DNA from: Ashinkailepas kermadecensis
Lineage: Eukaryota; Arthropoda; Thecostraca; Neolepadidae
Length of the DNA: 64,000 nt
Assembly: GCA_034440615.1 (NCBI GenBank)
Contig: JAOTOM010005182.1
Location: 922,001-986,000, forward strand
Direction of reading: 5' to 3'
Of this stretch, positions 2,580 through 39,858 are shown in pieces. The translations under genes were made by a program, and so were the position numbers. Numbering within the stretch: the first letter of the stretch is position 1; every line of letters starts with the position of its first letter. The notes beneath the pieces are model-generated. The model ran no database searches. It was not told the origin of the DNA and saw only the letters and a list, made by a program, of their open reading frames with translations.

Positions 2580-2727
2580 ATTCACACACCTTGTAGTGGA
2601 ACTTGCAGTAAATAGCTAGGCACTTGTTTGACATACCTTGTAGTGGAAATTGGAGTAGGCTTGACATTCGTTGGACATACTTTGTAGTGGAACTTGCAGT
2701 AGCTGATTTGGCACTTGCCGGACATAC
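2580..2727 (-). repeat. 46-bp repeat of catalase exon 4 donor, in intron 4
   Basis: The last bases of exon 4 with their splice donor recur three more times in intron 4 at even 46-bp spacing. Donor-like AAG/AAA-GT words lie near 2727 (the donor assigned here), 2679, 2635 and 2589. The copy at 2589 keeps the YCKFHYK coding sense and the same reading frame, and the frame is open from exon 4 through all copies. Divergence between copies suggests the array is not brand new. Confidence 0.8.
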
Positions 2728-2907
2728 CTTGTAGTGGAACTTGCAGTAGATGGCCTGGCACTTGTCGTTGACCAGCTTGAAGGCGTGGGAGCCATAGCCG
2801 TTCATGTGGCGGTAGCCGTCAGGAATGCCTCGGTCGGAGAACAGGAACGTCGCCTGGTGTGTCGACTCCGGCCTCAACGTGATGAAGTCCCAAAACATGT
2901 CCGGGTC
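2728..2907 (-). CDS. Cat: Catalase exon 4 (coding, internal)
   Basis: This exon has 180 nt (60 codons), phase 0 at both ends. The acceptor is CCGGCAG before GACCCGGAC and the donor is CACTACAAG before GTATGT. The translation begins [18 protein letters not shown] and continues [20 protein letters not shown] to YCKFHYK, which is a strong catalase match. Both edges are unusual. Intron sequence abutting the acceptor is part of a 45-bp tandem array, and the donor end is repeated four times in 46-bp steps. One repeat (donor at 2589) would extend the exon by 46 in-frame codons without a stop. The exon as given matches the normal family length. Confidence 0.95.
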
Positions 2908-3450
2908 CTGCCGGTTGGGTCAGGTGTGAGCGCCACGGGGAGGGCAGGAGTCCGACAGGTTGGGTCAGGTGTGAGCCCAGGCGTCCGATAGGTTGGGTCT
3001 GAGCCCCACGGGGCGGGCGGGTCCGAGGTTGGGTCGTGTGCGCCACGGGCGGGCAGGGTCCGACAGGTTGGGTCTGTGCGCCACGGGCGGGCAGGGGTCC
3101 GACAGGTTGGGTCAGGTGAGCACCACGGGGAGGGCAGGGTCCGACAGGTTGGGTCAGGTGTGAGCCCCACGGGGCGGGCAGGGGTCCGACAGGTTGGGTC
3201 AGGTGTGAGCGCCACGGGGCGGGCAGGGGTCCGACAGGTTGGGTCAGGTGTGAGCACCACGGGGCGGGCAGGGGTCCGACAGGTTGGGTCAGGTGTGAGC
3301 ACCACGGGCCGTCCGACGGTTGGGTCGTGTAGCGCCAGCAGGCGGTCCTGGTTGTCGTGACCACGGGGCAGACCCAGGTCCTACATGTTGGGTCAGTTCT
3401 GAGCACCACGGGGAGGGACCAGGTACGGCAGGTTGGGTCAAGTGGGGCAG
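2908..3450. repeat. 45-bp minisatellite abutting catalase exon 4 acceptor
   Basis: About eleven units of roughly 45 bp carry the words GACAGGTTGGGTCAGGTGTG and CCACGGGGCGGGCAG, with short deletions in several. The unit nearest the exon overlaps the natural acceptor region (CACCTGACCCAACC on the minus strand), so the array appears to have grown out of the intron's own 3' end. Open frames across it are by-products of the period being a multiple of three. Confidence 0.85.
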
Positions 3451-4778
3451 GTCAAGGTCATCACGGGGCGGAGTGGGGCCGTTCAAGGTGGGGGATGGGA
3501 TGGAGTGATGCAACACTCCCCCTGTGAGGTTTTTCCAGACTACGAGCAAGTAGTGTGAGTAAGAGCGCTAGCGTTTGATGCAGTTGATGGAGCATCCTTT
3601 GCCAGCCTTATGGTATGCAAATATGAAGGTACAAGGTCACTGAGCTGTGATGCCAGGAGCATGTCCGGCCGCTATTCACCTAAATCGTGTATTACCGGTG
3701 ACTAATCTTACCTACGAGGTCATACTGTCTCGTCTTGTATTGTAGTTTAGAGGCGCATCGACTGCAAAGGCAATATAGTCCATACTGCCTCGTGTGGCCA
3801 ATGTTGGATATACCAGGGCGATGGACAACTGAACTAACGTTCCTACATAGGTCATTGACTTTCATAAGGTCATCCGAGCTCACTGGTCAAACTAGGCCTC
3901 ACATGACATTTTTGGTTTGAATTACTCTGGGATTAAATTGGATGTGGAAACTGAACTTGGCGTTCATTTTTAGCTCTCGGTATCCGAAAATAGTGGTTCT
4001 TGGCACTAATTTGAAAGCTTCCAAAATGAGGTCAACATTTTGACTCAGGACCAATGACATATGGACATAAATGGAACATATCGCATATTGATAATATCCG
4101 AAGAAACGCGCGAACATTATGTTGAGCTTTTCAAGCGCAATCAGCTATTGGTACTATACCGGAAGAGATTAAACATAGAAAGTATCCACGTTCTGCGAGA
4201 AACAAAAAATATGGCTCAAAGGACCAAGGAGGGGAAACGGTAGCATAGAATATAAAAACCGGGTGTCAATCACAAGATCCTATGACGCGCAGCAGGCTAT
4301 TTTTTCATGCTACCAGCACTCTCCATCTAGAAACACTTGGGGTGGGGGTGGCAACAAACCCCTGCATTGGCGAAAGTGGCAAAACGCCGCGCGTGGGCGA
4401 GGGTTAAGGAAGTTTGGTTCCCGGCACAGGCGGCATGCACTCAATGCAACGCTACAATTATAATCTAGGCAAAATAATTAACTTTATTTCAACGGCAACC
4501 AGTCCCACCAGCAGTCGTCAAATGTGTACCCTGCACAGCTGCTGATGGTCGATCCCATCCCGCCCCATACCGGTGATGGTGTGAGCGGGCGCGTGTTGCG
4601 TCAAGTGTACCGGCTCGAGGTCAAGGCAGCCGTCTGTGGCGTGCCACACTGCGGCCGCACGTCTGTTTATCCGGCCGGCGCACCCGAGACTCGCCAGACA
4701 CATGCCGACAGTGGCCAGCTCGTGTGGACCGACCGAGTCAGGCTGCCCCGCTCACGGGCAACTGCCGCCCAGATAGTG
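3451..4778. other. Catalase intron 3 DNA without recognised features
   Basis: Mostly single-copy-looking sequence of mixed composition. A GC-rich patch at 4510-4770 has an open frame on the plus strand that I could not match to a family. A short word near 3745 (GAGGCGCATCGACTGCAAAG) resembles the tail words seen near 5490 and 9500 and may be a repeat remnant. Confidence 0.4.
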
Positions 4779-5070
4779 GCCCTGCAGTCTAGCTACAGTG
4801 GCCCAGATAGTGGCCCTGCAGTCTAGCTACAGTGGCCCAGATAGTGGCCCTGCAGTCTAGCTACAGTGGCCCAGATAGTGGCCATGCAGTCTAGCAACTG
4901 TTACCCAGGCAGTAGGCATGCAATCTAGCTACAGTGGCCCAGATAGTGACCGTGCAGTTTAGCTACAGTGGCCCAGATAGTGGCCATGCAGTCCAGCAAC
5001 TGTTACCCAGACAGTAGCCGTGCAGTATAGCTACCATGGCCCAGATAATGGCCGTGCAGTCTAGCTAGTG
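4779..5070. repeat. 34-bp minisatellite in catalase intron 3
   Basis: Eight or so units of about 34 bp have the core GTGGCCCAGATAGTGGCC followed by CTGCAGTCTAGCTACA. The first three are identical and later ones carry substitutions and a variant TGTTACCCAGACAGTAG segment. Confidence 0.85.
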
Positions 5071-7016
5071 GCCGCCTTCTCCCATGAACGACAATGACGA
5101 TAAGTGGCCAAATATTGGCCTTGTTTGCTTGTACGGAAGCCCACGTCGAACCAAGTGGGCCGTTTTGGCCGGGTGAATGTAGACATTCTTGTGGCGAACA
5201 ACACTCCCCTGGTCAACGGGTCAAAACAACCACCACGGATACTGAGTGTTGTTCCATGCGGTTCGTCTGGTCTTCATTTGATTATTTGCATACACGGGAG
5301 GAGGGCTGGTGGTGCCACACCTTTGAATGCACGTGGTCAGTTGGTTAATTGTGGCCTCGGGGATCACCGGCCGCAAAACGCGTCAAACGCAAACGTCGGT
5401 AACGCCCATGTACAGATGCTAATATACATTATCTGGCAGGATAGTAGTGCATGAACAAATTATTCGTGAAATAGTTAGTTATTTGGGCTTAAGGGCGCGC
5501 CGACCACGAGGTCATTTAGCGCCCATAACTATATATTTGTGAAATAGGGTGGATTGTGGCACTTCCTGAACACCGAATAGACATCATTCCTAAAGTGGTA
5601 TATGCATCTTGCTTAATGCCTCACTCCATATCTCGCTTCTAATGGTACCTTGTGTATACCAATCATATTTAAGTTCACTACGGATGGTGACAAACAAGCA
5701 TCTCGCAGCACAATTCCAGGTAAACAGATTATTTACGATGTAGTGTTATACAACAATATTTGTTGATACAACTGAATTGTTATCGTTAACATTAATACAG
5801 GCTTTCCTATGTTGTTAGGTGTTCCTCAAAATAAATGAAAAACATACTTATCAGTATACAGTTGCACACGATTTGGTTTGAAGGACGGAAACGACTTATT
5901 TGAAGCATATTTCCATGACCAATTTCGACATCCAACTGCACTCATTTCGACAGCTCTCACGTCACGAAAATCCATTATTCGAACACTGTTGTAGTGCGGC
6001 GTAAGATGAAGGGTACGGATTTCGATAACGACCTACGCCTCACCGAGCGTCGCACCAACCGCGCTTAATACCCTGCGGCGCCCAGGGCTCGTGAACGGCA
6101 TATCGTCCGACAACAGATATCGTATCCAATGCGGTGCTTTTTCGGCGGGACGTCCACAGCTACGAAGTACATCACTTGGGTAGGAGGTCGGAGCACAGGA
6201 AGTAAGCTTGTCCTTTACCAAATCGAAACTCTCCTCCACAGATGGGGAATCACATTTTCGGGGTGCTTGGGCACACCAAATGTTTTCAAGCCACCCTGAT
6301 AGTTAGCATGGGATCTTACGAACGGCCAGTGGGTACCTCTGTTGATGTTCACCTTCTTCTATTATAACGTGCAAAACATCCCCAATCCGATGTTCTCATT
6401 CTCCACGAATGCTATCCACAATCACCTAACACGCATCTGTAGTATATATCACGTTGCACAAGCATTAATCTAACATCACACCAACCATATACTTGTGCAT
6501 GCTACATGTCTTCATGCTTAAGCCATAGCGGACAACCCATAGACACAGGTTCGCTTAAATATTTGTACACCGAGCTGTCTCATCTGTCCACAACCCGCGG
6601 AATCTTAAGTTAGGGTGAGGGGCACGAACAATCTCAAGAGTGGGGTGAGGGGAACAACACTCTGACATGGTTTACTTCCATGCAACATCATACTGACAGG
6701 ACTGACGTCCAAATTACCCATAGGTTGGGAGCAGCTGTTCCTGCCCTCGTTTGTTCCTATGTCTACACACACAAACTACAAATGTATATTGCACACCAGG
6801 AAACACAACTTAATCTTACATGTGCCTGCACAGTACACATACACACACATATGTCTTACATGTGACAGCACAGCATGCATGCATACACACACACATATCC
6901 ACACATCTATGCATGCACAAATTATGCATACACAAATATACCAGTCAACAGCACATACACTCATAGCCCACATACACACAAGCGCATGTTCCACATTTCG
7001 AAGCTGGCCCGCTTAC
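5071..7016. other. Catalase intron 3 remainder
   Basis: AT-rich intronic DNA. At 5464-5530 there is a possible SINE tail (TTATTTGGGCTTAAGGGCGC). At 6033-6239, on the minus strand, there is an ATG-led 68-codon open frame in a locally GC-richer patch that I cannot assign. From 6740 to 6990 the sequence is rich in CA dinucleotides. No exon with catalase-like coding was found here. Confidence 0.45.
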
Positions 7017-7309
7017 CTTGAGATGGGTGGCCGGGTTCCGCTTCTGTGTGTGGATGAAGCTGGGGAAGAGAATCGGGTCGCGGATGAAGAAGATGGGGAT
7101 GTTGTTGCCGACCAGGTCCCAGTTGCCGTCTTCTGTGTAGAACTTGACGGCGAATCCGCGCGGGTCGCGCACGGTGTCGGCCGAGCCGCTCTCGCCGCCC
7201 ACCGTCGAGAAGCGCACCGCCACCGGCGTCCGCTTACCCACGGCAGAGAACACGGCCGCCTTCGTGTGCCTGGTGATGTCGTGGGTCACCTCGAAGTAGC
7301 CGAACGCGC
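7017..7309 (-). CDS. Cat: Catalase exon 3 (coding, internal)
   Basis: This exon has 293 nt. It starts by completing a glycine codon begun in exon 2 (acceptor GTTGCAG) and ends at AAG before GTAAGC in phase 0. The translation contains [53 protein letters not shown] and DLVGNN followed by [19 protein letters not shown]. The second Asn of the VGNN motif corresponds to the distal-pocket active-site asparagine of catalases. VGNNI replaces the more usual VGNNT, a mild change. The acceptor lies at the edge of a tandem array of 42/44-bp units that extends more than 1 kb into intron 2. The exon is intact. Confidence 0.96.
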
Positions 7310-7312
7310 CTG

Positions 7313-8345
7313 CAACGGTCGGTGGCGGCAGTCAGTCGACACGGCAGGACAGTGTCAGTGACAGTGGCGGCAGTCAGTCGACACGGCAGGACAGTGTCAC
7401 GTGACAGTGGCGACAGTCAGTCGACACGGCAGGACAGTGTCAGTGACAGTGGCGGCAGTCAGTCGACACGGCAGGACAGTGTCACGTGACAGTGGCGACA
7501 GTCAGTCGACACGGCAGGACAGTGTCAGTGACAGTGGCGGCAGTCAGTCGACACGGCAGGACAGTGTCAGTGACAGTGGCGGCAGTCAGTCGACACGGCA
7601 GGACAGTGTCACGTGACAGTGGCGGCAGTCAGTCGACACGGCAGGACAGTGTCACGTGACAGTGGCGGCAGTCAGTCGACACGGCAGGACAGTGTCAGTG
7701 ACAGTGGCGGCAGTCAGTCGACACGGCAGGACAGTGTCACGTGACAGTGGCGGCAGTCAGTCGACACGGCAGGACAGTGTCACGTGACAGTGGCGGCAGT
7801 CAGTCGACACGGCAGGACAGTGTCAGTGACAGTGGCGGCAGTCAGTCGACACGGCAGGACAGTGTCACGTGACAGTGGCGGCAGTCAGTCGACACGGCAG
7901 GACAGTGTCACGTGACAGTGGCGGCAGTCAGTCGACACGGCAGGACAGTGTCACGTGACGGTGGCGGCAGTCAGTCGACACGGCAGGACAGTGTCACGTG
8001 ACAGTGGCGGCAGTCAGTCGACACGGCAGGACAGTGTCACGTGACAGTGGCGGCAGTCAGTCGACACGGCAGGACAGTGTCACGTGACAGTGGCGGCAGT
8101 CAGTCGACACGGCAGGACAGTGTCACGTGACAGTGGCGGCAGTCAGTCGACACGGCAGGACAGTGTCAGTGACAGTGGCGGCAGTCAGTCGACACGGCAG
8201 GACAGTGTCACGTGACAGTGGCGGCAGTCAGTCGACACGGCAGGACAGTGTCAGTGACAGTGGCGGCAGTCAGTCGACACGGCAGGACAGTGTCACGTGA
8301 CAGTGGCGGCAGTCAGTCGACACGGCAGGACAGTGTCACGTGAAA
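7313..8345. repeat. 42/44-bp minisatellite abutting catalase exon 3 acceptor
   Basis: About 24 nearly identical units run with the core CAGTCGACACGGCAGGACAG. Units come in two lengths that differ by an extra CG in the middle: TGTCAGTGACAG (42 bp) or TGTCACGTGACAG (44 bp). The longer type creates a palindromic CACGTG. The array starts three bases beyond exon 3, at the acceptor itself. The high identity suggests recent expansion or ongoing homogenisation. Confidence 0.92.
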
Positions 8346-9420
8346 ATGAAAACAATGACGCCGCACGGCCGGACAGTGACAATGACGCTGCATGGCCAGA
8401 TAATGATAATAACGCCGCACGACCAGACAGTGACAATGAGACTGCATGGCCAGACAGTGACAATGACGCTGAACGACCAGACAGTGAGAACGAGTCTGCA
8501 CGGGCAGACAGTGACAATGACGCTGCACGACCAGACAGTGACAATGACGCTGCATGGCCAGATAATGATAATAACGCTGCACGACCAGACAGTGACAATG
8601 AGACTGCACGGACAGACAGTGACAATGAGACTGCACGGACAGACAGTGACAATGAGACTGCACGGACAGACAGTGACAATGAGACTGCACGGACAGACAG
8701 TGACAATGAGACTGCACGGACAGACAGTGACAATGAGTCTGCACAGACAGACAGTGACAATGAGACTGCACGGACAGACAGTGACAATGAGACTGCACGG
8801 ACAGACAGCGACAATGAGACTGCACGGACAGACAGCGACAATGAGACTGCACGGACAGACAGTGACAATGAGACTGCACGGACAGACAGTGACAATGAGA
8901 CTGCACGGACAGACAGTGACAATGAGACTGCACGGACAGACAATGACAACGAGTCTGCACGGACAGACAGTGACAATGACGCTGCACGACCAGACAATGG
9001 CAATGAGACTGCACGGACAGACAGTGACAATGAGACTGCACGGACAGACAATGACAATGAGACTGCACGGACAGACAGCGACAATGAGACTGCACGGACA
9101 GACAGTGACAATGACGCTGCACGACCAGACAATGGCAATGAGACTGCACGGACAGACAGTGACAATGAGACTGCACGGACAGACAATGACAACGAGTCTG
9201 CACGGACAGACAGTGACAATGACGCTGCACGACCAGACAATGACAATGAGACTGTACGGACAGACAGTGACAATGAGACTGCACGGACAGACAATGACAA
9301 TGAGACTGCACGGACATACAGTGACAATGAGACTGCACGGACAGACAGCGACAATGAGACTGCACGGACAGAACGTAATAATGACGCTGCATGGCCAGGC
9401 AGTGAGGATGCTGCACGATC
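8346..9420. repeat. 27-bp minisatellite in catalase intron 2
   Basis: About 40 units of 27 bp run with the core GACAGTGACAATGAGACTGC and a trailing ACGGACA. The period is a multiple of three, so several frames stay open for nearly 400 codons on both strands. These are not supported as genes: the frames are pure repeats and lie inside a catalase intron. The array joins the 42/44-bp array directly and shares GACAGTG with it. Confidence 0.9.
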
Positions 9421-9876
9421 CATGGACATTTGCTTCTCGTGGAAACCCTATGCCAAAGAGAATGTACAGCTGTGCAATTAGTTGGTTGGTTATTTGGGCT
9501 TAGGGGCGCATCAACTGCTTCGGTCATACAGCCTGTGCAACTAGTTATTTTAGCCTGGCTCTGGCCACCCCGAGGACTGTGAAAAAAAATTGGAGTCGTG
9601 ACGCGGATATAGCCGGCGGATTTCGTGGACAGGGGATAAGACACAATCACTCCAGTATATCAAATAAACTTGATTATCTCCAAAATTGCAACATTCTTTA
9701 TGCCCGAAAGGGAACACATGGCCCCATGACCTCACTACCAAGATTTGTTGATGGTGGAGCCAGTGCTCTTCTGCCATGTGTTAAGTATTGGCACAGACAA
9801 CGAGAAAGGGCGCACCTCCTGCTGGTGTACGCTGTGGATGCGCAGCTCTGCCTGCGTGCCAGGGCCGATCACTTAC
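9421..9876. other. Catalase intron 2, proximal part
   Basis: Non-repetitive intron DNA leading to the exon 2 donor. At 9481-9530 there is a GTTGGTTGGTTATTTGGGCT word followed by GGGGCGCATCAACTGC, resembling other putative SINE tails in the window. Confidence 0.4.
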
Positions 9877-10021
9877 CGGCGCCTTTGGCGTGCACCACGC
9901 GCTCGGGAATGCGTTCGCGGTCAAAGTGGGCCATCTCGTCGATGTAGCCGTGATCCTGGATGAGCTGCGGGCCGCGCGGTCCGGCCGTCAGCGACGCCGT
10001 CTTGGTGTCCATCGGGTGCCC
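9877..10021 (-). CDS. Cat: Catalase exon 2 (coding, internal)
   Basis: This exon has 145 nt, with acceptor CAGCCAG before GGGCACCCG and donor GCCG before GTAAGT. The translation reads [18 protein letters not shown], then [20 protein letters not shown] and [10 protein letters not shown]. The histidine in VVHAKGAG is the distal catalytic histidine of catalases. Phases are consistent: exon 1 ends phase 0 after 57 coding nt, this exon ends one base into a codon, and exon 3 completes it. The polypyrimidine tract before the acceptor is weak, and the intron just outside the acceptor repeats as units of about 46-50 bp carrying the same TGGTGGTGCACTG word. Confidence 0.95.
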
Positions 10022-10250
10022 CTGGCTGGTGGTGCACTGTTCCGGGCTCTGCGGCAACATGACATGTGTACACTAGTGGTGCACTGGTCCGGGCTCTGCA
10101 GCAACACGACACATGCATACATTAGTGGTCACCGGTCCGGGCTCTGTGGCAACACAACACATATGCTGGTGGAGTACTGGTCCAGGGTGAGCGGCAACAC
10201 GACACACACACACACACACACACTGGTCGTGCACTGGCATGGTTTGAGTT
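10022..10250. repeat. Tandem units abutting catalase exon 2 acceptor
   Basis: Four to five degenerate units of about 46-50 bp begin at the acceptor. Each has a TGGTG-GCACTGGTCC-like start, a GGGCTCTG centre and a GCAACACGACAC end, and the block finishes in a CA run. Related units reappear at 10570-10860. Confidence 0.75.
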
Positions 10251-10569: not shown

Positions 10570-10865
10570 ACACTGATGGTGCATCGGTCCAGGGTCTGCA
10601 GCAACACTATATGCACAGACCGATGGTGCACTCATCTTAGGTATGTGACAGCACTACACATGCACTGATGGTGCACTGGTCCAGGATATGTGGCAACATG
10701 ACATGAGCATACACTGGTGGTGGTCCTGGGTCTGTGACAGCATGACATGACAAGACACACATGACATGACATACACACACACACATGCACTGGTGGTGCA
10801 TATGTCTGGAGTCTGTTACAGCACTGCACAAGACACACTGGTGGTGCACTGGCATCTGAACCGCC
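10570..10865. repeat. Second block of the intron 1 tandem family
   Basis: Six degenerate units have the TGATGGTGCA and GGTCCAGG-TCTG words seen next to exon 2, separated from that block by about 300 bp of unrelated sequence that includes an 11-base G run near 10440. Both blocks lie in catalase intron 1. Confidence 0.65.
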
Positions 10866-16327: not shown

Positions 16328-17899
16328 TGTAGGGCGGCGAGGTCGGGGGCGGCGTCGGTGTGGGTGGAGAGGGGGATGGATGGGGGGGGGGAGGGGTTGG
16401 TAGGGGTGTGTTCGGAAGGAAGGGAGGGGGAGGGGTGGTCTGGTCATGTCTTGGTAGGGGAAAGGGGGGGGGGTAATAGGGGTTGGTCTCGTCATGTCTT
16501 GGTAGGGGAAAGGGGGAGGGGTAATAGGTATTTGAGGGGGATTGGATATTAGGAATTGGTAGGGGTGTGGTTCGGTCTGAGTGGTCTGAGTGGTTGGTCT
16601 TGAGTGGTTGGTCTGAGTAGCAATCGTCTGAGTTTGGAGTAGTTGGTCTTAGTAGCAGTCGTCTGAGTTTGGAGTAGTTGGTCTTGTCGCTGTCGGAGGC
16701 GTTTGTGTTATTGGGGTCTTGATCTACTGCGGTGCGCCCATGAGACAGTTGTTTCCGCCGGCGCCGGCCGCCGGCCGGCGGCCATGTTTGCTCCGCTCAC
16801 GGACGCTGGGCGGGTTCTCCCCGACCCGTGCCGATCTCGTTTCCGGTGGGCTGGCTCCCGGCCGGTGCGGCCCACGGAGAGCGGTGACCCGCGAGTCCAC
16901 GCTGCAGTATGAGCTGTCATCATATGTCATATCATCATGTCTTCGTATAGTCATCTTGGCGGCGCCCCGTAACTCGTTATCCTAACACAAATTTATATGG
17001 CGAGACCAAGTTTCTCACTGCACTACTTACATTCGTGAGTGAACCTAGCTTGGTTGTGGCGCCAGGGAAGGATAGAGGAACCGCGTGGTTGGAGAGACTT
17101 AGGGGGTGTGGTCTTAAGAGGACATTGGAATGAGCGGACATTGGAGTTGGAAATGCGTCCGTCACCGGCACTCGTCCAGCTTCGGGGCCCTCTTTAGTGT
17201 TAAAGTCCCCCTTGTTTCCCTCCATGTGCTCCACCAGCAATGCTCCCACGGGTCACCGAATTGGCAAATTGAGGGCCTAGGTAATTATCCTGTGCCAAAT
17301 TTTGACAACGATGGGTTTCTGACAGCTGCATGCACACGTCGTGTCCCAAACAGCCCCCACTGGTCCTTAAGTACCCTTAGCTAGGTCATGCACACTTACA
17401 TTCCCTTCCATTCCGAACGTTCGCTCCATAAATGACAAATGTAAATGTTTGGCCCGAGATTTTCCCTTCCAGTGGTATGTGCGCATTCAGCAAGTCTTAC
17501 TTTCTCTGATCGCTGCTTAGGGCTTGATCTGGGGTATGATATACTATTCCCCGCTGATCGCTGCTTAGGGGTATGATATACTATTCCCGTTACTGCCTTC
17601 AAGGCTCGATGACACTGGGCTGCGACATTCCGTTAGTTTCTGATGGTCTTATGTCTGGGCTTGGGTAATAATGGCCGACATACCTACAATTTAAATGAGT
17701 CAACGCCTTGCCAGGACTTGCATGCTCGAACTTGCGATCGGCGGGCACCCCCACAGGTGGTCCTGGGCCACAAATCGGTCGGGATGGCACCCTATCGTCT
17801 TTCTAACCTATCCTGCCCGGGGTCATATAGGGAGCCCCACAAATCCCCTGCCTATCCTTTCCTTGGGGGCTTACGGAACGCCAAACTTCATCTTCCCAT
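16328..17899. repeat. Left arm of 5.8-kb inverted-repeat structure
   Basis: About 1.57 kb with its reverse complement at 20592-22155 at very high identity; for example, the translations at 17396-17602 and 20884-21090 differ by a single residue. It includes a GGCCGCCGGCCGGCGGCC-type palindrome near 16770. The outer end begins TGTAGGGCG on both sides. I see no target-site duplication immediately outside. Confidence 0.92.
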
Positions 17900-20591
<2,692 letters not shown>

Positions 20592-22155
20592 AGATGAAGT
20601 TTGGCGTTCCGTAAGCCCCCAAGGATAGGACAGGTAGGGGATTTGTGGGTCTCCCTATATGACCCCGGGCAGGATAGGTTAGAAAGACGATAGGGGGACC
20701 ATCCCCACCGTTTTGTGGTCTATGACCACCTGTGGGGGTGCCCGCCGATCCCACGTTCGAGCATGCAAGTCCTGGCAAGGCGTTGACTCATTTAAAGTGT
20801 AGGTATGTCGGCCATTATTACCCAAGCCCAGACATAAGACCATCAGAAACTAACGGAATGTCGCAGCCCAGTGTCATCGAGCCTTGAAGGCAGTAACGGG
20901 AATAGTATATCATACCCCTAAGCAGCGATCAGCGGGGAATAGTATATCATACCCCAAATCAAGCCCTAAGCAGCGATCAGAGAAAGTAAGACTTGCTGAA
21001 TGCGCACATACCACTGGAAGGGAAAATCTCGGGCCAAACATTTACATTTGTCATTTATGGAGCGAACGTTCGGAATGGAAGGGAATGAATGTAAGTGTGC
21101 ATGACCTAGCTAAGGGTACTTAAGGACCAGTGGGGGCTGTTTGGGACACGACGTGTGCATGCAGCTGTCAGAAACCCATCGTTGTCAAAATTTGACACAG
21201 GATAATTACCTAGGCCCTCAATTTGCCAGTTCGGTGACCCGTGGGAGCATTGCTGGTGGAGGACATGGAGAGAAACAAGGGTGACTTTAACACTAAAGAG
21301 GGCCCCGAAGCTGGACGAGGGCCGGTGACGGACGCATTTCCAACTCCAATGTCCGCCCATTCCAATGTCCTCTTAAGACCACACCCCCTAAGTCTCTCCA
21401 ACCACGCGGTTCCTCTATCCTTCCCTGGCGCCACAACCAAGCTAGGTTCACTCACGAATGTAAGTAGTGCAGTGAGAAACTTGGCCTCGCCATATAAATT
21501 TGTGTTAGGATAACGAGTTACGGGGCGCCGCCAAGATGACTATACGAAGACATGATGATATGACATATGATGACAGCCCATACCGCAGCGTGGACTCGCG
21601 GGTCACCGCTCTCCGTGGGCCGCACCGGCCGGGAGCCAGCCCATCGGAAACGAGATCGGCACGGGTCGGGGAGAACCCGCCCAGCATCCGTGAGCGTAGC
21701 AAACATGGCCGCCGGCCGGCGGCCGTGCGGAAACAACTGTCTCAAGGGCGCACCGCAGTGGAGTAAGACCCCAATAACACAAACGCCTCCGACAGCGACA
21801 AGACCAACTGTTCCAAACTCAGACGACTGCTACTAAGACCAACTACTCCAAACTCAGACGATTGCTACTCAGACCAACCACTCAAGACCAACCACTCAGA
21901 CCACTGAGACCGAACCACATCCCTACCAATTCCTAATATCCAATCCCCCTCAAATACCTATTACCCCCTCCCCCTTTCCCCTACCAAGACATGACGAGAC
22001 CAACTCCTATTCCCCCCCCCCCCCCTTTTCCCCTACAAAGACATTACCAGACCACCCCTCCCCTCCCTTCCGAACACACCCCTACCAACCCCTCCCCCAT
22101 CCATCCCCCTCTCCACCCACACCGACCCCGCCCCCGACCTTGACGCCCTACAGCA
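20592..22155. repeat. Right arm of 5.8-kb inverted-repeat structure
   Basis: Reverse complement of 16328-17899. Differences from the left arm include small indels in the GC-rich palindrome near 21715 and in the C-rich outer 300 bases. Confidence 0.92.
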
Positions 22156-30429: not shown

Positions 30430-31061
30430 TGTGACAGTCTAGTTGTTTCCGCTCGTGCGTCAGGCGTCGAAGAAGATGGACGCTGCTGCTGATGACCGCG
30501 TCTGTGCATCGGATGCTCTGGCCTCGAAACACGGCGTGATAGTCCAGACCTCGTTGATATTGACACACACAGGCACACGAGAGATAACCACTGTCCAAAC
30601 CCGGTTCTCAGTTCCGTCGGCACTCTGTGTCCGTCCCCGCGCCACGACAGGTCACACAGTGGTAGTTACCGTCAGATGTTCAGAGGGAGCGATGTTAGCA
30701 GCTCGGCGTCTCGTGATGGTCTGTCCTGTCGAGGGTCCTGTCCCGGGGTTTTTATTCAAGTGTGTATATATACTAATGGAAAAGCCTGCATGCACGCGCT
30801 GACCTTTGCCTGGGGACGGAAGTGCACGTGCAACGCGCGTGTGTGTGAATCACTGCCGGGCGGGCGCGTGACTCACTGCGTAATTGCATCTGCCGAGCGG
30901 AGCTCGGTGTGCGTTTATTTATGTGACGTATCGGTGGCGGCTGCGGGCGCGCTGGCCGTGTGGAGGGGATGACGAAATGCATGTCCGTGGGCTGGTTGGG
31001 AAGTGTGGTGCAATGCGTGATTGCTACAATAGCGTGTTCGCTACAATGCCTAATTGCTACA
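30430..31061 (-). repeat. 3' LTR of gypsy-type element
   Basis: 632 bp with TG and CA ends, identical by eye and in length to the LTR at 39859-40490. On the element strand it has a TATATATAC word near 30770, AATAAA words at 30751-30756 and about 30915-30920, and ends in GACTGTCACA. A 4-bp CAGT duplication flanks the whole element, which fits the uninterrupted satellite sequence exactly. Confidence 0.95.
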
Positions 31062-31064
31062 ATA

Positions 31065-31075
31065 CCTCCCCCACC
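31065..31075 (-). promoter_or_regulatory. Polypurine tract
   Basis: GGTGGGGGAGG on the element strand, three bases before the 3' LTR. This is the usual primer for plus-strand DNA synthesis. Confidence 0.8.
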
Positions 31076-31811
31076 ACGGAAAAGAAGCATTTTAAGACGG
31101 CAGGGAAAAAAATGCGGGAAAACCGGCGCCTAAATGGCGAAGGGCTACATGTCAACGGTGTGCCTGAAGGGGCATGAACGGCGACGAGTGGCCGACAGGC
31201 AAAACATGCACACACCAAGACAAACACCCATATCATCAACGCGGACGACGCACACACACACATACACATACAAGAATCCGCGAGGTCTTGGCGGCGAGCA
31301 TACGCGGGCACCGCGGCGAGCACTCGAGGTCACGTCGGCGGTTACAGTGGGCACCGCGGCGGGCACTCGAGGTCACCGTGGCGGCGAACGAGACGACTGT
31401 GACGTCGGCGTCGGTCGCACGTCGGGCACGAACGAACTTCGGACCCTGACGCTGGCGGTTGCACTCGTACGGGGGGGAGAGAAGGGGGCGATGTGGGCCT
31501 CACATCGATGACGAGTCGCGGGGGAGGGGGAAGAAGAACGAGTTGCGCTCGAAAGGCGCACTCGATCACATCCGTCGATTTGGTGGGACGTCGGCTCGTG
31601 ATGCCGTGGTCGCCATGACGGTCGGGGGTGTAGCCGGGGAAGGCACCATCTCTTGGGACGGTGCTGGCTCCGTAAGCTGTTCCGCTGACCGATGCGAGGG
31701 TAGAGGCTGCTGTAATTCTATGGCTGGTTCACCGGAGGGATCCTGGCGTAATACGGGGGTGAATCGGGGGAAGCGGTAAGCAAAACGTCTTACGGGGCAG
31801 CATGCTTTAAC
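31076..31811 (-). other. Element 3' untranslated region
   Basis: About 735 bp between the env stop and the polypurine tract. It is GC-rich, with a CA run near 31250. Open frames on both strands match nothing known. Confidence 0.6.
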
Positions 31812-33611
31812 TCATAGGACCAAGATGATTGCGGAGAAAACACCAAGAGTTAAAATCAAAAGCCATGTACGATTGTAGGCCGAGGGGAGATGGTCTCGGG
31901 TGCGTTCCAAAGGTTGCATTTCGATATCATCGAAATAGGTAGAAGCGGGGATGCCGTCGATGTGAATGGCGGGAAGATCGGTGACATTCAATGTGGTGAT
32001 GCGATGAAGGGATCGTGTCCAACGAGGACGCCAAATTGGTAACGTGTGGTTTACCAAGAGAGTTCGGGCATCAAAAGGGCGTAGTTCAAGATGGGTGGCT
32101 CGAGCATAATGGGGTGGGAGGTAAAAGGTATCCCCTGTGGCTGAACATTCACTTCCGAGGGAGAGGATGTCGGTGGAGCTGGTAATGGTGAGGGTTCTAC
32201 CGGTTGAGGCCGTGGCACATGAAATGGTCACCTGGAAGGAGTGACTAGAAACCATTAACCATTTACCTTGGCCGAGATAGTACGCCTTGGGTTCGTTGTT
32301 TGTAGGAAGAGCGACAGGTGAGCAACGAGCGTGAGCGGCGAGTGTATCATTGCGGAATAAGGCAACGACACATGTGGTGGAAGCTACCGTGGAGTAAGCG
32401 GGTTCGTGTAGGTCACAAAAGGGTTGGTTCGCGAGAATACAGGTTTCGATGCTGAGCTTGTCAGGTTGCATGTACAATTGGCGGTTTTCGGAAACGAGCA
32501 AATATTCCGATTCGGAGGGCAGATATCCCAGGGAAATGTTGTATGATCCGTGAGGTACTAGGTACGGGAAGAAACGGAATACGTCGAACGCACGAAGCAC
32601 ATGGATGAGCGGTATGTAGAATATTACATGGAATGCCCGTTCGGTTCGAACTAGTTTGGTTTTCACGATCCTTACGTATTTATTTTTGCTAGTGGCGGGA
32701 AACGGTAGTGCAAAGTTCGTCGGGAGGGCTTTCTGTATTTTGCGTAGCAAACGCGCAAACTGTGTAGCTGATAATACCTGGGCATGTAAAATGCCGGCTT
32801 GCGCTAGGGCCAATTTGGTGGTTAATTCACTTAGCTCAAAATGCAGGCGATGAAGGGTTTGAGTCACCTGGCGGACGTTGTCCTCTACGTAGGTCAGAGC
32901 GACAATATATCGGAAAGGACTGCGTTCTTGGGACCGGATCATGGAATAAAAGTTATCAACCGTGCGTGACAAAGCGCGTAAGGCTTTGCTAACGTTGATC
33001 AAGGCTCTCCGATTTTGGGTGGTGGATATGGCTGTCTGATTCATGACATGTAATGTGCCATTGAAAAGATGGGCCATTGCCATTTCCTTGTTGTTGATCA
33101 ATTCGACGTTATTTTTCAAATGGTCGATCTCGGATTCAGTTGCTGTGCCAAACAAATAGGACAACGCGTTCCCTATGCCGTTAATTAATCCTCTTTTGTT
33201 GCGAGATGATCGTGTATGGGGCGTAGGATCCAGCAAATCGTGATATGTGGCGGATATGTCATTAGTATCATGCTCGAGGCGGTCGATCTCTCGGTCGGTT
33301 CTATTTATGTTAGTCGCGAGCATGGATTCAGTGGTTTCGGTAAGATTTCCCAAGCCAAAACGGCGGTTCGCTAGGGCGCGGGATATTTTGGTGAGTAAGC
33401 GAATGGCTTCATGAATGCGCGCTATTTGGGTACCGTACTGGGTCATGGGGATTGAGACGGTCACGGCCCAAGAGCTGTAACTGGGGTACGTTTTTCCTAA
33501 GGGGATAAAGAGGTGTCCGGGGTCTCGTGGGGCATTTTCGAGGAGGTCGTCACTCCCTCCGTGAACCAGTATAAGCCAGCCAAGAATTAACCAGCTTACC
33601 CTGAGGGTCAT
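31812..33611 (-). CDS. env: Envelope glycoprotein, F-like (env)
   Basis: 599 residues. Residues 1-19 form a signal peptide (hydrophobic run ending in HGG). A basic cleavage motif RNKR lies at 137-140 and is followed directly by GLINGIGNALSYLFGTA, the fusion-peptide pattern of errantivirus and baculovirus F-type class I fusion proteins. Many N-x-S/T sites follow, and a hydrophobic anchor lies at about 580-597. It would sit in the membrane and mediate fusion after cleavage. The ATG overlaps the stop of the preceding ORF as ATGA, and a good splice acceptor (CTTCTGTTTCAG) ends six bases before it, which argues for expression from spliced RNA. It is full length and unbroken, so it is a candidate for infectious behaviour, which the sequence alone cannot prove. 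Confidence 0.93.
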   Translation of the reverse strand: MTLRVSWLILGWLILVHGGSDDLLENAPRDPGHLFIPLGKTYPSYSSWAVTVSIPMTQYGTQIARIHEAIRLLTKISRALANRRFGLGNLTETTESMLATNINRTDREIDRLEHDTNDISATYHDLLDPTPHTRSSRNKRGLINGIGNALSYLFGTATESEIDHLKNNVELINNKEMAMAHLFNGTLHVMNQTAISTTQNRRALINVSKALRALSRTVDNFYSMIRSQERSPFRYIVALTYVEDNVRQVTQTLHRLHFELSELTTKLALAQAGILHAQVLSATQFARLLRKIQKALPTNFALPFPATSKNKYVRIVKTKLVRTERAFHVIFYIPLIHVLRAFDVFRFFPYLVPHGSYNISLGYLPSESEYLLVSENRQLYMQPDKLSIETCILANQPFCDLHEPAYSTVASTTCVVALFRNDTLAAHARCSPVALPTNNEPKAYYLGQGKWLMVSSHSFQVTISCATASTGRTLTITSSTDILSLGSECSATGDTFYLPPHYARATHLELRPFDARTLLVNHTLPIWRPRWTRSLHRITTLNVTDLPAIHIDGIPASTYFDDIEMQPLERTRDHLPSAYNRTWLLILTLGVFSAIILVL

Positions 33612-34177
33612 TGTGCACTGAAACAGAAGACATTGCTTATGATGGCATCAACAATCGTAAACAACATGCGACGATCAAACAACAGATCCGATGGCGTTCT
33701 ACTCTGGGAACAACCATTATTAGCGAATGTTTGTACATTCGCGATGTTTACCTCTGGGGATAAACATCGGGATTCGGACTGTAGACGAGGTCGTTTCTCC
33801 TGTTTCTGCACCGCTTCCTTCTCCGGTTCCTTCTCCGGTTCAATCTTACGTTTCCGTTCGTTGGCTGGAAAGTCCATAAACTGACCAAGCCGTAACCCTT
33901 CGTTCCGGTGTGCACAATCCGTTAGTAACTTCCGTGAACGTAAATCGTAACGGTGAGTCGGTGGCGTGTTAAAATACTCACTGTTCGGTTGTGTTTGTCT
34001 CGAACTCCCTTCTCTGTCCGTTAACAGTGATGGGTCATTAGCTAGAGGCAAATCAACATGCGAAGGGTCCGCAGGGAATGGTGGGATTTCTCCATATCCC
34101 CGTTCCTGGTTCTGTAACCATCCGTGGTTCTGTAACCATCTCCGTTTCCGGCAGCCATGGGCTGTGTATCCTCGCAT
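33608..34177 (-). CDS. Extra ORF between pol and env (unknown)
   Basis: An ATG-started frame of 189 codons. It overlaps the last 136 bases of pol in another frame and shares ATGA with the env start. It has no recognised domain. Visible features are a basic patch KRRW near residue 11, a YDLRSRKL segment near 76-83, and a lysine/glutamate-rich stretch (ERKRKIEPEKEPEKEAVQKQ then EKRPR) that could be a nuclear-localisation or RNA-binding signal. A CAGGTAAGT donor in pol (34279) paired with the env acceptor (33618-33620) would remove it entirely as a 661-nt intron. It may be an accessory protein, a former extension of pol, or chance. No homologue comes to mind. Confidence 0.5.
   Translation of the reverse strand: MRGYTAHGCRKRRWLQNHGWLQNQERGYGEIPPFPADPSHVDLPLANDPSLLTDREGSSRQTQPNSEYFNTPPTHRYDLRSRKLLTDCAHRNEGLRLGQFMDFPANERKRKIEPEKEPEKEAVQKQEKRPRLQSESRCLSPEVNIANVQTFANNGCSQSRTPSDLLFDRRMLFTIVDAIISNVFCFSAQ
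33617..33629 (-). promoter_or_regulatory. Candidate env splice acceptor
   Basis: The element strand reads CTTCTGTTTCAG before TGCACAATG, a pyrimidine-rich tract with AG. It leaves TGC ACA ATG in frame with env. Confidence 0.6.
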
Positions 34178-37143
34178 GGTAACTGACGCTGGTCATACCA
34201 GAGGCGATCACTAAGGGGGAGCTTAGCTGCGCGTAGGGGTTGGTGGCGAAGCGGCTCCTCCTCCCGTCTCGTACTTACCTGAACAGGTCGACGTACTGAC
34301 TCATATGTCCTGTTCCATATGTCATCAGTGTCGCGGGGTCTCAGGTTTTCTGAATGTACCAACTTGGTTTTTCCATTCATCATGTTTTTAATCACATAAT
34401 TTTCGTTGCCTATTTTGGAGATGATTCTAAAATAGGGCTTCCAGAACAATGTAAATTTTGTCGACTCCCCTGGTTTGACTGAGGGGTCGTGGTAATAGAC
34501 GGGGTCTCCTGGCTTGAAGGAAGACGCGTGAGCATTCCGGTCAATTAATGCTTTGTTGTGATCTCGGGACTGCTGACGATTTTGAACTACGTCCTGAAAG
34601 GCGTTATGCAAAAATTCAAATGTTTGGGCAACGTAATCCTCTCCTGCGTAACGAACACGAGGTTGTAGGAAGGTATCGATCGGAACTCGGGCATCTCTTC
34701 CGTACATGATAACAAAAGGAGAATGGTTTGTGGTTTCGTTCTTGCTTACTCGATAGGCGGCTAAGCAAGGGTCCAGCACTTGATCCCATTGACTTTGATT
34801 CTCGCTAATTTGTTTGGAAATCATTTCGTTCAAGGTTTTATGAAAACGCTCGGTTAAACCATTACTTTGTGCGTGGTAACTTGATGTACGGAGTTTCGTT
34901 ACTCCCAATTCCTTGCACACTAAATCCATAATTGCGTTGCAATATTCTGTTCCCTGGTCACTGAGTAACATGTTGGGACAACCGTGTCTGGGCAGGAATT
35001 CTTTCAAGATTAATTTAGCAATTGTTTCCGCGGTTTTGTCTGGTATAGCCCAAGCTTCTGGCCATCCACTGAAGTGGTCCACAATCGTGCAGACGTAACG
35101 GTTACCGCTGTCCGAAATAGGAAATGGGCCACACGTGTCGATACCAATTATATCAATTGGGTATCGCGGCATCGGCATGTCTTGCATGGGACGTCTTTCT
35201 TTCCTGAGTTTTCTCCGGTTGCATGTTTCACAAGTCTGTACGTACTGCTTTACGTCTTTTAACATGGTTATCCAATAATATGACTTTGCTACTTTGTCGA
35301 TGGTTTTCTCAATTCCCAAATGTCCTCCGAAAAAGCCATCGTGCATACATTCCAACACTGGTTTCCTGAAGGGAAGGGGTAGCATCAGCTGCATTCGAGT
35401 CTGCGGGCGCGTTTTCGTACCCTTTTCTAAATGGTATAGTAATTCATCTTCTATACAGTATCTTGCCATAATTTGAGGATTTTCTTTGTTCAATTCCAAT
35501 CTAATGGTCTCCAGTTCTTCATCTGCTAATTGTGCCTGTTTGAGGTCGGGTAGGCTAGGCAAAGCGGAGTTTGTGTTGTCCGTCTGGACGGGCATCATCT
35601 CTTCACCTTCGGAATCAGATTCCGACTGGTATGCGTTGTCAACTACGTTAATTTCCTCATCTGGGCCTTTCCAATCTAAATGTTCATTGTCTGCTAGGTC
35701 TCCGGCTATCGGCGTGTTCGCTAGGCGTGACATCACATCGGCAGTGTAGTTTTGGGGTCCCGAAATGTATTCTATTTTGCATGCGTATTCGCCTAACATG
35801 ATAGCCCAACGTTGTATGCGCGGATTTTTCATTTCACTGGTGAACAGATGTTTCAACGGCTTGTGATCTGTGTACACGGTCAGCTGTGTTCCTACTACAA
35901 TGTGGCGGAGTTTACCTAAACTGTAAATAATCGCGTAAGCCTCGCGCTCGATGGTCGGCCATTTTTGTTGTGCATCTGAGAATTGGTGCGACACATACTG
36001 TATGACTCGGTCCTGACCATCCTGTTCTTGTGTAAGCACAGCGCCTAGGGCGTATTGTGACGCGTCAGTATACAACTTGAAAGGCTTGGATATGTCCGGA
36101 AAAGCTAACACTGGGGCTGTGACTAAACTGTTCTTCAACGTGTCAAAAGCCTGTTGCGCTTCGGGGGTCCATTTACATTTTGCATTTTTCTTTGTCATGG
36201 CCGTTAAGGGTCTTGCAATTTTGCTGAATTCGGGAACGTATTTTCGGTAATAGGAAGCCATGCCTAGAAAGCTTCTGACCTGACGGACCGTAGTCGGAGC
36301 TGGCATTGATTGTACGACTTGGACTTTCTCGGGATTTACTGATATTCCTTCATTGGAAACGACGTGTCCTAGGTAATTCAGTTTTTCACGTAAGAAGTCA
36401 CATTTTGAAATTTTCAACTTAAGATTCGCTTTTCGCAATCGGTCAAACACTATTTCTAAATGCTTCACATGTTCCTCAAAAGTGTTACTGAAGACAATGA
36501 TATCGTCAATGAACGCCAGGGCAAACGGTCGAACATCACCAAGAACAGCGTTCATCAGGTTTTGGAAAACAGCTGGGCTGCCAGACAAACCAAAGCACAT
36601 TCTATTGTGCTCGAATATTCCTGCATCGGTTCCAAAGGCGGTCTTTTCTCGGTCTTCTTCTGCAATGGGTATTTGCCAGAATCCTGCTTTCAGGTCTAAG
36701 CTGCTCCGATACTTCGATTTTCCCAGGGATAGTAAAATGTCGTCCGCAGCTGGAATGCTGGGTGCAGGCACAATAGTGACAGCATTTAATTTCCTGAAAT
36801 CCAAACACACACGATACGTTTTGTCCTTTTTTGGAACTACAATGACTGGAGATAACCAAGGTGAGTTACTTCTGCGTATAATTCCGGCGTCCAACATTTC
36901 CTGAATTTGGTCATCCAATATTTGGCGGTGTGCCAAAGGCAGACGGTACGGTTTTTGTCTAATTGGCTGATGGCCCTGAGTGTTGATTCTCATCTCCGTG
37001 GCATCGGTCATTGTCAGTTCTATGTCTTTTTGCACGAAAACATCAAGGTTTTTGGAGAGGGTTTCGCTCATCTGCTTTCTTTGAGGTTCGGGAATGTGAT
37101 CCAAATTGAAAGCACTCAATTTGTCCTCAGGTGAATATGGCAT
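34042..37143 (-). CDS. pol: Pol: reverse transcriptase, RNase H, integrase
   Basis: 1033 residues from the first ATG. The reverse transcriptase spans about 60-260, with LDLKAGFWQIPI, FGLSGSPAVFQNLM and the catalytic FIDD at 211-214. RNase H follows (YTDASQYALGAVL, then YTDHKPLKHL). The integrase has an HHCC zinc site (HDGFFGGHLG and TCETCNRRK), a DDE triad in IIGIDTCGPFP, LLSDQGTEYCN and GLTERFHKTLNE, and a C-terminal SENLRP segment. All catalytic motifs are present. The frame is open upstream of the ATG into the end of the protease frame, so it may be translated by frameshifting, not from its own start. It is in the same frame as gag, while the protease lies in a different one. Confidence 0.96.
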   Translation of the reverse strand: MPYSPEDKLSAFNLDHIPEPQRKQMSETLSKNLDVFVQKDIELTMTDATEMRINTQGHQPIRQKPYRLPLAHRQILDDQIQEMLDAGIIRRSNSPWLSPVIVVPKKDKTYRVCLDFRKLNAVTIVPAPSIPAADDILLSLGKSKYRSSLDLKAGFWQIPIAEEDREKTAFGTDAGIFEHNRMCFGLSGSPAVFQNLMNAVLGDVRPFALAFIDDIIVFSNTFEEHVKHLEIVFDRLRKANLKLKISKCDFLREKLNYLGHVVSNEGISVNPEKVQVVQSMPAPTTVRQVRSFLGMASYYRKYVPEFSKIARPLTAMTKKNAKCKWTPEAQQAFDTLKNSLVTAPVLAFPDISKPFKLYTDASQYALGAVLTQEQDGQDRVIQYVSHQFSDAQQKWPTIEREAYAIIYSLGKLRHIVVGTQLTVYTDHKPLKHLFTSEMKNPRIQRWAIMLGEYACKIEYISGPQNYTADVMSRLANTPIAGDLADNEHLDWKGPDEEINVVDNAYQSESDSEGEEMMPVQTDNTNSALPSLPDLKQAQLADEELETIRLELNKENPQIMARYCIEDELLYHLEKGTKTRPQTRMQLMLPLPFRKPVLECMHDGFFGGHLGIEKTIDKVAKSYYWITMLKDVKQYVQTCETCNRRKLRKERRPMQDMPMPRYPIDIIGIDTCGPFPISDSGNRYVCTIVDHFSGWPEAWAIPDKTAETIAKLILKEFLPRHGCPNMLLSDQGTEYCNAIMDLVCKELGVTKLRTSSYHAQSNGLTERFHKTLNEMISKQISENQSQWDQVLDPCLAAYRVSKNETTNHSPFVIMYGRDARVPIDTFLQPRVRYAGEDYVAQTFEFLHNAFQDVVQNRQQSRDHNKALIDRNAHASSFKPGDPVYYHDPSVKPGESTKFTLFWKPYFRIISKIGNENYVIKNMMNGKTKLVHSENLRPRDTDDIWNRTYESVRRPVQVSTRREEEPLRHQPLRAAKLPLSDRLWYDQRQLPCEDTQPMAAGNGDGYRTTDGYRTRNGDMEKSHHSLRTLRMLICL
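34273..34282 (-). promoter_or_regulatory. Candidate splice donor in pol
   Basis: TCAGGTAAGT on the element strand, full consensus, with the last exon base at 34279. It leaves pol in phase 0 (codon 955). Confidence 0.45.
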
Positions 37144-37171
37144 GTCGGCTGGCTGAGAGACCGACGAAATA

Positions 37172-37906
37172 TCAGCTTTTCACTTCCATGTCGCTTTCCG
37201 ATACTTTGGATGCAACACCTATCACTTGACCTTTTCTAAAATGCAAGAAACGACCCGTTTCGTTGACAATGGCCCATGGGATGTGCTTATTTTTGGACAT
37301 TTTTACCACGGCATTGGGCAGTAGCACTCCAGGTTCGTCTTCAAAACAAGGGGAGGTGGCCAACTGGGATACTACAAAGTTTTCTCCTGGGGTCTTCTGC
37401 TTTGCTACATGACATTTGACTTGGATATCGGAGCGGGGGAAGACTTGGATATCATCGGACAGTCTGACCAGGAATACTTCGGTCTGCTTCAGTTCTGGTT
37501 TCGTTTTGAGCGGGTACACAGTCTTTCCAATAGTGAGCGTCTGGTTTTCAAAATCTAACCGAGCTTTCCGTGCTGTTAAAAAATCTACTCCGAGGAGCAT
37601 GTCATGACCGAAATTGGGTATCACAAAGAAATCATGATACATTCGTACTTTTCCCAGAGTAATGCGTATTTTCACACATTTGGAAATGGGCAACTTATGC
37701 CCCGAGGCAGAGATGAGTGATATGTTTTTCTTTTCTTCGATCGGTTTTACTAGGTTGGGATCGCACAGGGTTAGGAAATGTTCGTCAACAAGAGAGAATT
37801 GAGCACCCGTATCAAGAAGTGATCTAAATGCTTGAGAACCTATACAAATGTCGACAAAGGGGCAATTTTCACTTACCTGGCAGACGGAAGCTCGTTGTTC
37901 TGACAC
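37172..37906 (-). CDS. Retroviral-type aspartic protease
   Basis: About 245 codons as measured from a GTG; there is no ATG, and the frame is open upstream at least to the gag stop. The active site is LLDTGAQFSLVDE (Asp about residue 32). A second hallmark, MLLGVDFL, lies near residue 110. It would cut the Gag-Pol precursor during particle maturation. The frame is -1 relative to gag, and the gag stop is preceded by GGAAAC, where the final AAC could slip to AAA. This is not a textbook slippery heptamer. It ends 28 bases before the pol ATG. The absence of an ATG makes frameshift expression likely. Confidence 0.9.
   Translation of the reverse strand: MSEQRASVCQVSENCPFVDICIGSQAFRSLLDTGAQFSLVDEHFLTLCDPNLVKPIEEKKNISLISASGHKLPISKCVKIRITLGKVRMYHDFFVIPNFGHDMLLGVDFLTARKARLDFENQTLTIGKTVYPLKTKPELKQTEVFLVRLSDDIQVFPRSDIQVKCHVAKQKTPGENFVVSQLATSPCFEDEPGVLLPNAVVKMSKNKHIPWAIVNETGRFLHFRKGQVIGVASKVSESDMEVKS
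37871..37880 (-). promoter_or_regulatory. Candidate splice donor at protease start
   Basis: CCAGGTAAGT on the element strand, last exon base 37877, phase 0 in the protease frame. Confidence 0.4.
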
Positions 37907-37932
37907 GTTTGGTGAGTCGGTGTGAGGCCTCT

Positions 37933-39027
37933 CTAGTTTCCTGACGGCTGCGGGGGCTGGGGATGAGACATCTCATAAGCCCTTTTCCGACACATTCGCT
38001 GGATGTGTCCGGGAAAATTGCAGTAGTTGCAGATGGGTCTGCCTTCTGCCGTCCATCGATACGCATTTCGGGGGGAGTTCGGTGCCGTGGGAGTTCTCTG
38101 GGGGTTCTGGTAGCGGTCATTCTGCGGCGGAACATACTGCCTGGGAGGTCGTGGCTGGTACTCACGAGGCGGTACAAATTCCGGGGTTGGTTCCTTGGGG
38201 TGTCTCTGGTACTGAGTCTGCTGCTGTGATCTCACCTGTGGCTGTTGTGAATGCTGCTGCGGGGCATGACTTACCTGGTCTACCCGTGAGGCTAAATTCG
38301 ATACAATATCTGTCAGCTGGGAGATCTGTCCGGAGAGGTGGTCGGTAACGTGCGTGGCAATGGCGCTAATATCCATTGGCTCATGGTCTTTGGTGTGCAA
38401 GTCCACCAAGTACTGAAGATTGCGCTCTTTTTCGGCGGCGGTTACGGCTTGTTCAAGGGTAGCGGGATGTTTACGTATCAGCGATACCTGCATGCGTCTA
38501 TCGTACAGGCCATCAATGAAGTTTCCAGAGAGTTGAGCTTGAATTGGCGGCAAGTCGATTTCCGTACTCGAGTATAATTTATGAGCGAGAAGGTTGATCC
38601 TCTCGCCGTACTGTTCCAAGGTTTCATTTTTCGTTTGTTTGACCCGTTTAAGTTGTTCTTGCACAGTTCTGAGGTCGTGCATACCGGCAAATCTATCGGT
38701 CATTTCTCGTTTTAAAACGTTCCATGACTGGGGGCGTGGCCCGTTGTCCACAATTCGAATGTACTGACGTTTGGCAGCACCGATCAAAAGTCGCCCAGCA
38801 ATTAAGAGGGTCATTTTTTCGTTTCCCCCACTACATCTATAAACCTCATCCACAGTATCGATCCATGTACGTAATCCATCAGAGTTCTGGCCATCGAATC
38901 TCTTGCTTTGACTTAGCACATCGGTTAGGAAGGGAGCCATCGCAATGTCATCTCCCATAGTGCACACGTTGGAATCCATTGCAAGCGTTGAGTAATGGTG
39001 GTCCTCAGGAGCAGTTTCGTGAGCCAT
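37933..39027 (-). CDS. gag: Gag capsid/nucleocapsid polyprotein
   Basis: 364 residues from an ATG at 39027. A retrotransposon gag domain is recognisable at about 60-190 (AAKRQYIRIVDNGPRPQSWN, TVQEQLKRVKQTKNETLEQY, GERINLLAHKLY). A glutamine/proline-rich linker follows. A single CCHC zinc knuckle near the C-terminus (CNYCNFPGHIQRMC) would bind RNA. The protein forms the particle shell that packages element RNA. The stop is at 37933-37935, after which the protease frame takes over by a -1 shift. A full-consensus splice donor lies inside at 38275. Confidence 0.93.
   Translation of the reverse strand: MAHETAPEDHHYSTLAMDSNVCTMGDDIAMAPFLTDVLSQSKRFDGQNSDGLRTWIDTVDEVYRCSGGNEKMTLLIAGRLLIGAAKRQYIRIVDNGPRPQSWNVLKREMTDRFAGMHDLRTVQEQLKRVKQTKNETLEQYGERINLLAHKLYSSTEIDLPPIQAQLSGNFIDGLYDRRMQVSLIRKHPATLEQAVTAAEKERNLQYLVDLHTKDHEPMDISAIATHVTDHLSGQISQLTDIVSNLASRVDQVSHAPQQHSQQPQVRSQQQTQYQRHPKEPTPEFVPPREYQPRPPRQYVPPQNDRYQNPQRTPTAPNSPRNAYRWTAEGRPICNYCNFPGHIQRMCRKRAYEMSHPQPPQPSGN
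38269..38278 (-). promoter_or_regulatory. Candidate splice donor in gag
   Basis: CCAGGTAAGT on the element strand, last exon base 38275, phase 0 at gag codon 251. Confidence 0.4.
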
Positions 39028-39839: not shown

Positions 39840-39857
39840 ATCCGGGTCACGGCACCA
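39840..39857 (-). promoter_or_regulatory. Primer-binding site, tRNA-His type
   Basis: TGGTGCCGTGACCCGGAT on the element strand, one base inside the 5' LTR. It complements the CCA end of eukaryotic tRNA-His, which ends GTCACGGCACCA. The distal bases vary between species, so full identity cannot be checked here. Confidence 0.8.
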
Positions 39858-39858
39858 C

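Follow-up and report, generated by a model that had tools for sequence, protein, structure and literature searches.

Catalase gene and other features of the window

The window is a stretch of 64,000 nucleotides from contig JAOTOM010005182.1 of the barnacle Ashinkailepas kermadecensis. Its initial 11.2 kb contain, on the minus strand, coding exons 1-5 of a catalase gene (Table 1). Exon 1 is given from its ATG, and the gene continues on its 3' side beyond the window. The joined exons 1-5 give 298 codons without a stop, and all four introns between them have GT-AG borders. Among the best 120 of 7998 scored matches, the closest named protein is the catalase-like isoform X1 of Pollicipes pollicipes, a thoracican goose barnacle, with 91% identity over all 298 residues, followed by a jgi protein with 87%, while the other 118 of the 120 reach 81% at most. 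An amphioxus origin of the window, considered in view of the mirages known there (see below), was rejected on these matches.

The catalase model was aligned with nine homologues chosen among the 120 listed. The alignment was gapless for seven of them, and in the remaining two a single residue was missing near the N-terminus, not at an exon border. The join between exons 1 and 2 reads CGSPEQC here, as compared to CGAPEQC in Pollicipes. This alignment to nine relatives supports the predicted exon borders.

Table 1. Catalase exons and tandem arrays in the window, in the order of transcription
Feature	Position	Strand	Basis and remarks
Catalase exon 1	11210 (ATG) to 11154	-	splice-border model; no array at donor
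Degraded further exon 2 acceptor copies, intron 1	10573..10851	-	border test and copy comparison
Exon 2 acceptor array	10029..10206	-	~47 bp unit, ~20 nt of exon 2
Catalase exon 2	10048-9877	-	splice-border model and homologue alignment
27-bp array, intron 2	8352-9405	-	TRF; adjoins 43-bp array; off splice sites
42/43-bp array, intron 2	7322..8343	-	24 copies; ends 12 nt upstream of exon 3 acceptor
Catalase exon 3	7309-7017	-	Pfam PF00199 and homologue alignment
34-bp array, mid intron 3	4767-5067	-	TRF; off splice sites
Exon 4 acceptor array	2903..3417	-	12 copies, ~45 bp unit; border test and self-comparison
Catalase exon 4	2907-2728	-	border-spanning array on either side; homologue alignment
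Exon 4 donor array	2584..2767	-	4 copies; TRF and border test
Catalase exon 5	1440-1249	-	no array at acceptor or donor

Elsewhere in the window, CLP1 (mRNA cleavage and polyadenylation factor) occupies 45058-46347 as a single open reading frame (429 residues), which covers its Pfam domains. A codon-usage scan, which was trained on the catalase exons and the CLP1 frame and was hence bound to recover both, yielded no further spliced gene clear by eye among its best 60 segments, the region 30500-40600 apart.

An LTR element at 30430-40490 has two 632-bp LTRs (30430-31061 and 39859-40490) that are 100% identical, contains gag-, protease-, and Baculovirus F-like env reading frames, and sits within a ~491-bp tandem repeat. 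It looks like a recent insertion and may be of the errantivirus type. A large inverted repeat (16328-17897 and 20588-22152) has arms of ~1.6 kb that are 96% identical, with a TC/TA microsatellite in the spacer and tandem repeats close to the outer ends; it may be a foldback element or one with terminal inverted repeats. Among the 70 longest self-matches listed are three more inverted repeat pairs, 12485-13154/14371-15062 (89% identical), 23266-24038/24522-25293 (85%), and 53842-54448/57859-58457 (75%). Tandem Repeats Finder (TRF) further reported a tandem repeat of 148-154 bp, in ~11 copies, at 62262-63997, up to the window end.

Tandem arrays at and away from the catalase splice sites

In the catalase introns, TRF detected nine repeat loci (overlapping rows counted once), six of which were classed as arrays and three as low-copy loci with 2.5 copies or fewer (6814-6893, 6908-6937, and 10741-10787). 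In a separate border test, a ~50-base segment was cut out at every one of the nine model borders, and further copies of it were sought nearby. Tandem, minisatellite-like repeats were found at the catalase borders, and their unit spans the exon-intron border at three of the nine, the exon 2 acceptor, the exon 4 acceptor, and the exon 4 donor, where it carries ~20, ~5, and 40 exon bases, respectively. For the donors of exons 1, 2, 3, and 5 and the acceptor of exon 5, no extra copies were found within up to 1500 nt at the score used. Tandem repeats that span exon-intron borders were named mirages in amphioxus Adh3, according to the available portions of PMC3087553 and PMC3902484.

For the exon 4 donor, the unit consists of the last 40 nt of exon 4 and 7 nt of the intron (GTATGTC), and the four copies are spaced by 44-47 bp. 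All three intronic copies retain the GT. The exon copy is 87, 76, and 83% identical to the respective intronic copies, as compared to 67-74% among the intronic copies themselves. The exon copy is thus the closest to all, which fits a constrained exon end as the source and drifting descendants.

For the exon 2 acceptor, eight copies were found in all, the last of which are degraded and lie past a gap in the array, the farthest being a 14-nt match at 10838-10851. The extra copies are 55-81% identical to the exon-side copy, and four of the seven keep the AG. The range of 55-87% likeness to the exon copy, spanned by the extra copies of the exon 4 donor and the exon 2 acceptor, makes these copies look old.

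The copies at the exon 4 acceptor reach just 3-6 bases into the exon: the first five exon bases (GACCC) or more are matched by 7 of the 11 extra copies, and only three to four by the remaining four. The extra copies are locally 78-91% identical to the exon-side copy, and in 10 of the 11 CG replaces AG (one position being extrapolated). The TRF span of this array covers only 2996-3308, starting 88 nt from the exon; the copies that reach the border are weaker and were found by the border test and self-comparison, not by TRF.

For the exon 3 acceptor, the splice site is absent from the unit of the 42/43-bp array. Similarity across the splice site amounted to 7 of 27 positions in register, and the best score in any register was reached by 480 of 2000 shuffles. 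The unit does not span the border, and the array was not filed as a mirage. Its copies share 98% matches (TRF), and the array looks recently grown or homogenised. The earlier note had placed arrays at four boundaries with the splice site inside the unit, a description that holds for three borders and fails for the exon 3 acceptor.

The units of the six arrays were compared in 15 pairs, each scored against 300 shuffles. The majority of the pairs score as shuffles do; the closest were the 43-bp/27-bp and 34-bp/27-bp pairs (score reached by 2 and 3 of 300 shuffles, respectively), followed by the exon 4 donor/exon 4 acceptor (9) and 34-bp/43-bp (13) pairs. The 27-bp array is perhaps related to its 43-bp neighbour. 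When the units were sought elsewhere in the window, none was found outside its own array at the score used. The view that the arrays are copies of a single dispersed repeat was rejected by this comparison within the window, where the statement of the earlier note that they are not one dispersed repeat was borne out.

The proximity of the array edges to the splice sites was compared with a simulation, in which the arrays were placed randomly inside their own introns in 200,000 trials and an edge no more than 12 nt from a splice site was counted as a hit. With the TRF edges, three of the six arrays lie within this distance, which was matched in 11 of the 200,000 trials; with the three low-copy loci added, the count is three of nine, matched in 47 of 200,000. 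With the edges from the border test, which were set by hand after viewing, the count is four of six, matched in 0 and 1 per 200,000 trials in two runs.

Origin of the arrays and state of the extra copies

The border-spanning arrays in the catalase gene are probably mirages of the kind seen in amphioxus, namely, local duplications that are tolerated with the exon-side copy left intact. At the three sites where the unit spans the border, the exon-side copies fit the conserved catalase, and the extra copies have diverged. Slippage or unequal exchange would produce a local tandem duplication across an exon-intron border, and such border duplications would grow into minisatellites, with the working splice site kept by one exon-side copy. 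All of the extra copies would be intronic, so that the mature mRNA would be unchanged while the spliceosome uses the exon-side site, and the arrays would therefore be tolerated and free to drift. In this scheme we infer the origin by slippage or unequal exchange, the use of the exon-side site, and the selective neutrality. Against the mirage reading, the three extra donor copies at exon 4, all with their GT, could compete, and the AG is retained in four extra copies at the exon 2 acceptor. In addition, the exon 3 array lacks a splice site, and the exon 4 acceptor copies overlap the exon by so few bases.

As for the position of the arrays, survivorship alone may explain why they lie at borders: the intact border remains on the exon side, and the rest is cheap in the intron. 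The earlier note had proposed that splice-site DNA is prone to duplication here, which might still be the case; however, at least two arrays in the same introns, the 34-bp and the 27-bp arrays, are off splice sites, and survivorship therefore explains the position equally well.

A filter on the acceptor side is a possible, though rather improbable, contributor. As a rule, the first AG past the branch point is the one that is used. Arrays upstream of an acceptor would grow only if their unit is free of AG, and the survivors would be copies of the AG-free branch-point zone. Consistent with such a filter, an AG-free run of 1076 nt (7312-8387), the longest on the transcript strand of the window, precedes the exon 3 acceptor; 5 AGs were observed in 2910-3417, in the exon 4 acceptor array, as compared to 19 expected; and a branch-like CTGAC motif is present upstream of the acceptors of exons 3 and 4, at distances of 26 and 16 nt, respectively. 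The AG depletion upstream of these acceptors hints at a fit to the filter rule. Conversely, the exon 2 acceptor array has no such depletion (8 AGs vs 7.8 expected), and an AG-free unit is not rare, arising in 0.14 and 0.19 of shuffles. With 14% and 19% of shuffles free of AG, the AG-free arrays were rejected as proof of selection, the evidence being too weak.

The retention of duplicate donors and acceptors as a splicing backup, which the earlier note had suggested in stating that spare copies keep splicing robust, is very unlikely given the state of the copies. The GT or AG is kept in 8 of the 21 extra copies over the three borders (3/3 for the exon 4 donor, 4/7 for the exon 2 acceptor, and 1/11 for the exon 4 acceptor), a count in which two site positions, one per acceptor, were extrapolated beyond the end of the alignment. 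Use of any extra copy for splicing would place a portion of the array in the mRNA. The GTs of the donor copies would suit a backup, as would the donor copy farthest downstream, at 138 nt, which is the only one of the 21 that combines its GT with a catalase frame open through exon 5; splicing at this donor was computed to add 46 residues. However, each of the other 20 copies either lacks the GT or AG or would lead to a disrupted frame or an extra stop, no in-frame, stop-free product results from any of the seven extra exon 2 acceptor copies, and the AG is missing in 10 of the 11 extra exon 4 acceptor copies. With so few copies having a usable site, the copies do not resemble a backup. In the nine aligned relatives, no insertion was found at the array-bearing borders.

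Intron gain in progress, in which new introns or exons would arise when a border is duplicated in tandem, is highly improbable. Such gain has been put forward for amphioxus globins and reported in a potato gene, as far as the portions of those sources at hand go, and it shares with the catalase arrays the tandem copying of splice-signal sequence. In contrast, no new intron is seen in the barnacle catalase. For each of the four introns, 100-nt segments around its two ends were compared, and their similarity did not exceed that of shuffled sequences, the score being reached by 125-850 of 1000 shuffles. An assembly artefact is least credible of all: tandem arrays are error-prone in assembly, and the copies of the 24-copy array share 98% matches, but the extra copies at the exon 4 donor (76-87%), the exon 2 acceptor (55-81%), and the exon 4 acceptor (78-91% locally) differ too much to stem from a single stretch that was read twice.

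Relation to known border-spanning repeats

The earlier note knew of no named precedent, which is wrong for this kind of array. In the available text of PMC3087553 and PMC3902484, amphioxus mirages are also described in the globins BflGb6 and BflGb9, troponin C (TnC), and PGBD5, and splicing is said to be undisturbed. The amphioxus and catalase arrays, as far as the former are described there, share minisatellite-like units that span the 5' or the 3' border, either border type being affected, and the presence of splice dinucleotides in many, but not all, of the copies. In contrast to the amphioxus cases, the catalase case is in an arthropod, affects three borders within a single gene, with units that differ, and was read from a single haplotype.

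Cuin and Porter reportedly described, in 1995, a human interferon-induced transcript in which a minisatellite supplies multiple splice donors, the gene being, it is said, 6-16/IFI6. Such a minisatellite with several donors resembles the exon 4 donor array, whereas, to judge from the title of that report, it concerns donors only; the catalase gene adds two acceptors, and its copies are putative sites. Internal tandem repeats at exon-intron boundaries are also described for human duplicated genes in the part of PMC2812944 at hand. These are likewise tandem repeats at exon-intron borders, but they lie in segmental duplications and alter transcripts, unlike what can be read from the catalase gene.

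No report of at least three such borders in one gene was found in the literature covered, much of it in partial form, by searches of wider scope. Titles and the beginnings of abstracts, which leave most subscription papers uncovered, contained no mention of mirages outside lancelets, and the words "tandem" and "minisatellite" are absent from the main texts of the barnacle genome papers PMC8917513 and PMC8270832. What is new here is the occurrence of mirage-type arrays in a barnacle, and hence in another phylum, and at three borders in one gene.

Three mirages in one arthropod gene suggest that such arrays can arise elsewhere too. It is unlikely, as we see it, that border-spanning minisatellites are common in barnacle genomes, independent of those in lancelets, with the acceptor-side ones filtered for AG-free units; if this were true, the arrays would form a natural record of sequences that the spliceosome ignores. 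Each array is a natural experiment on the choice that the spliceosome makes among similar adjacent sites, those on offer, the working one included, being four GT-bearing donors at exon 4 and five AG-bearing acceptors at exon 2.
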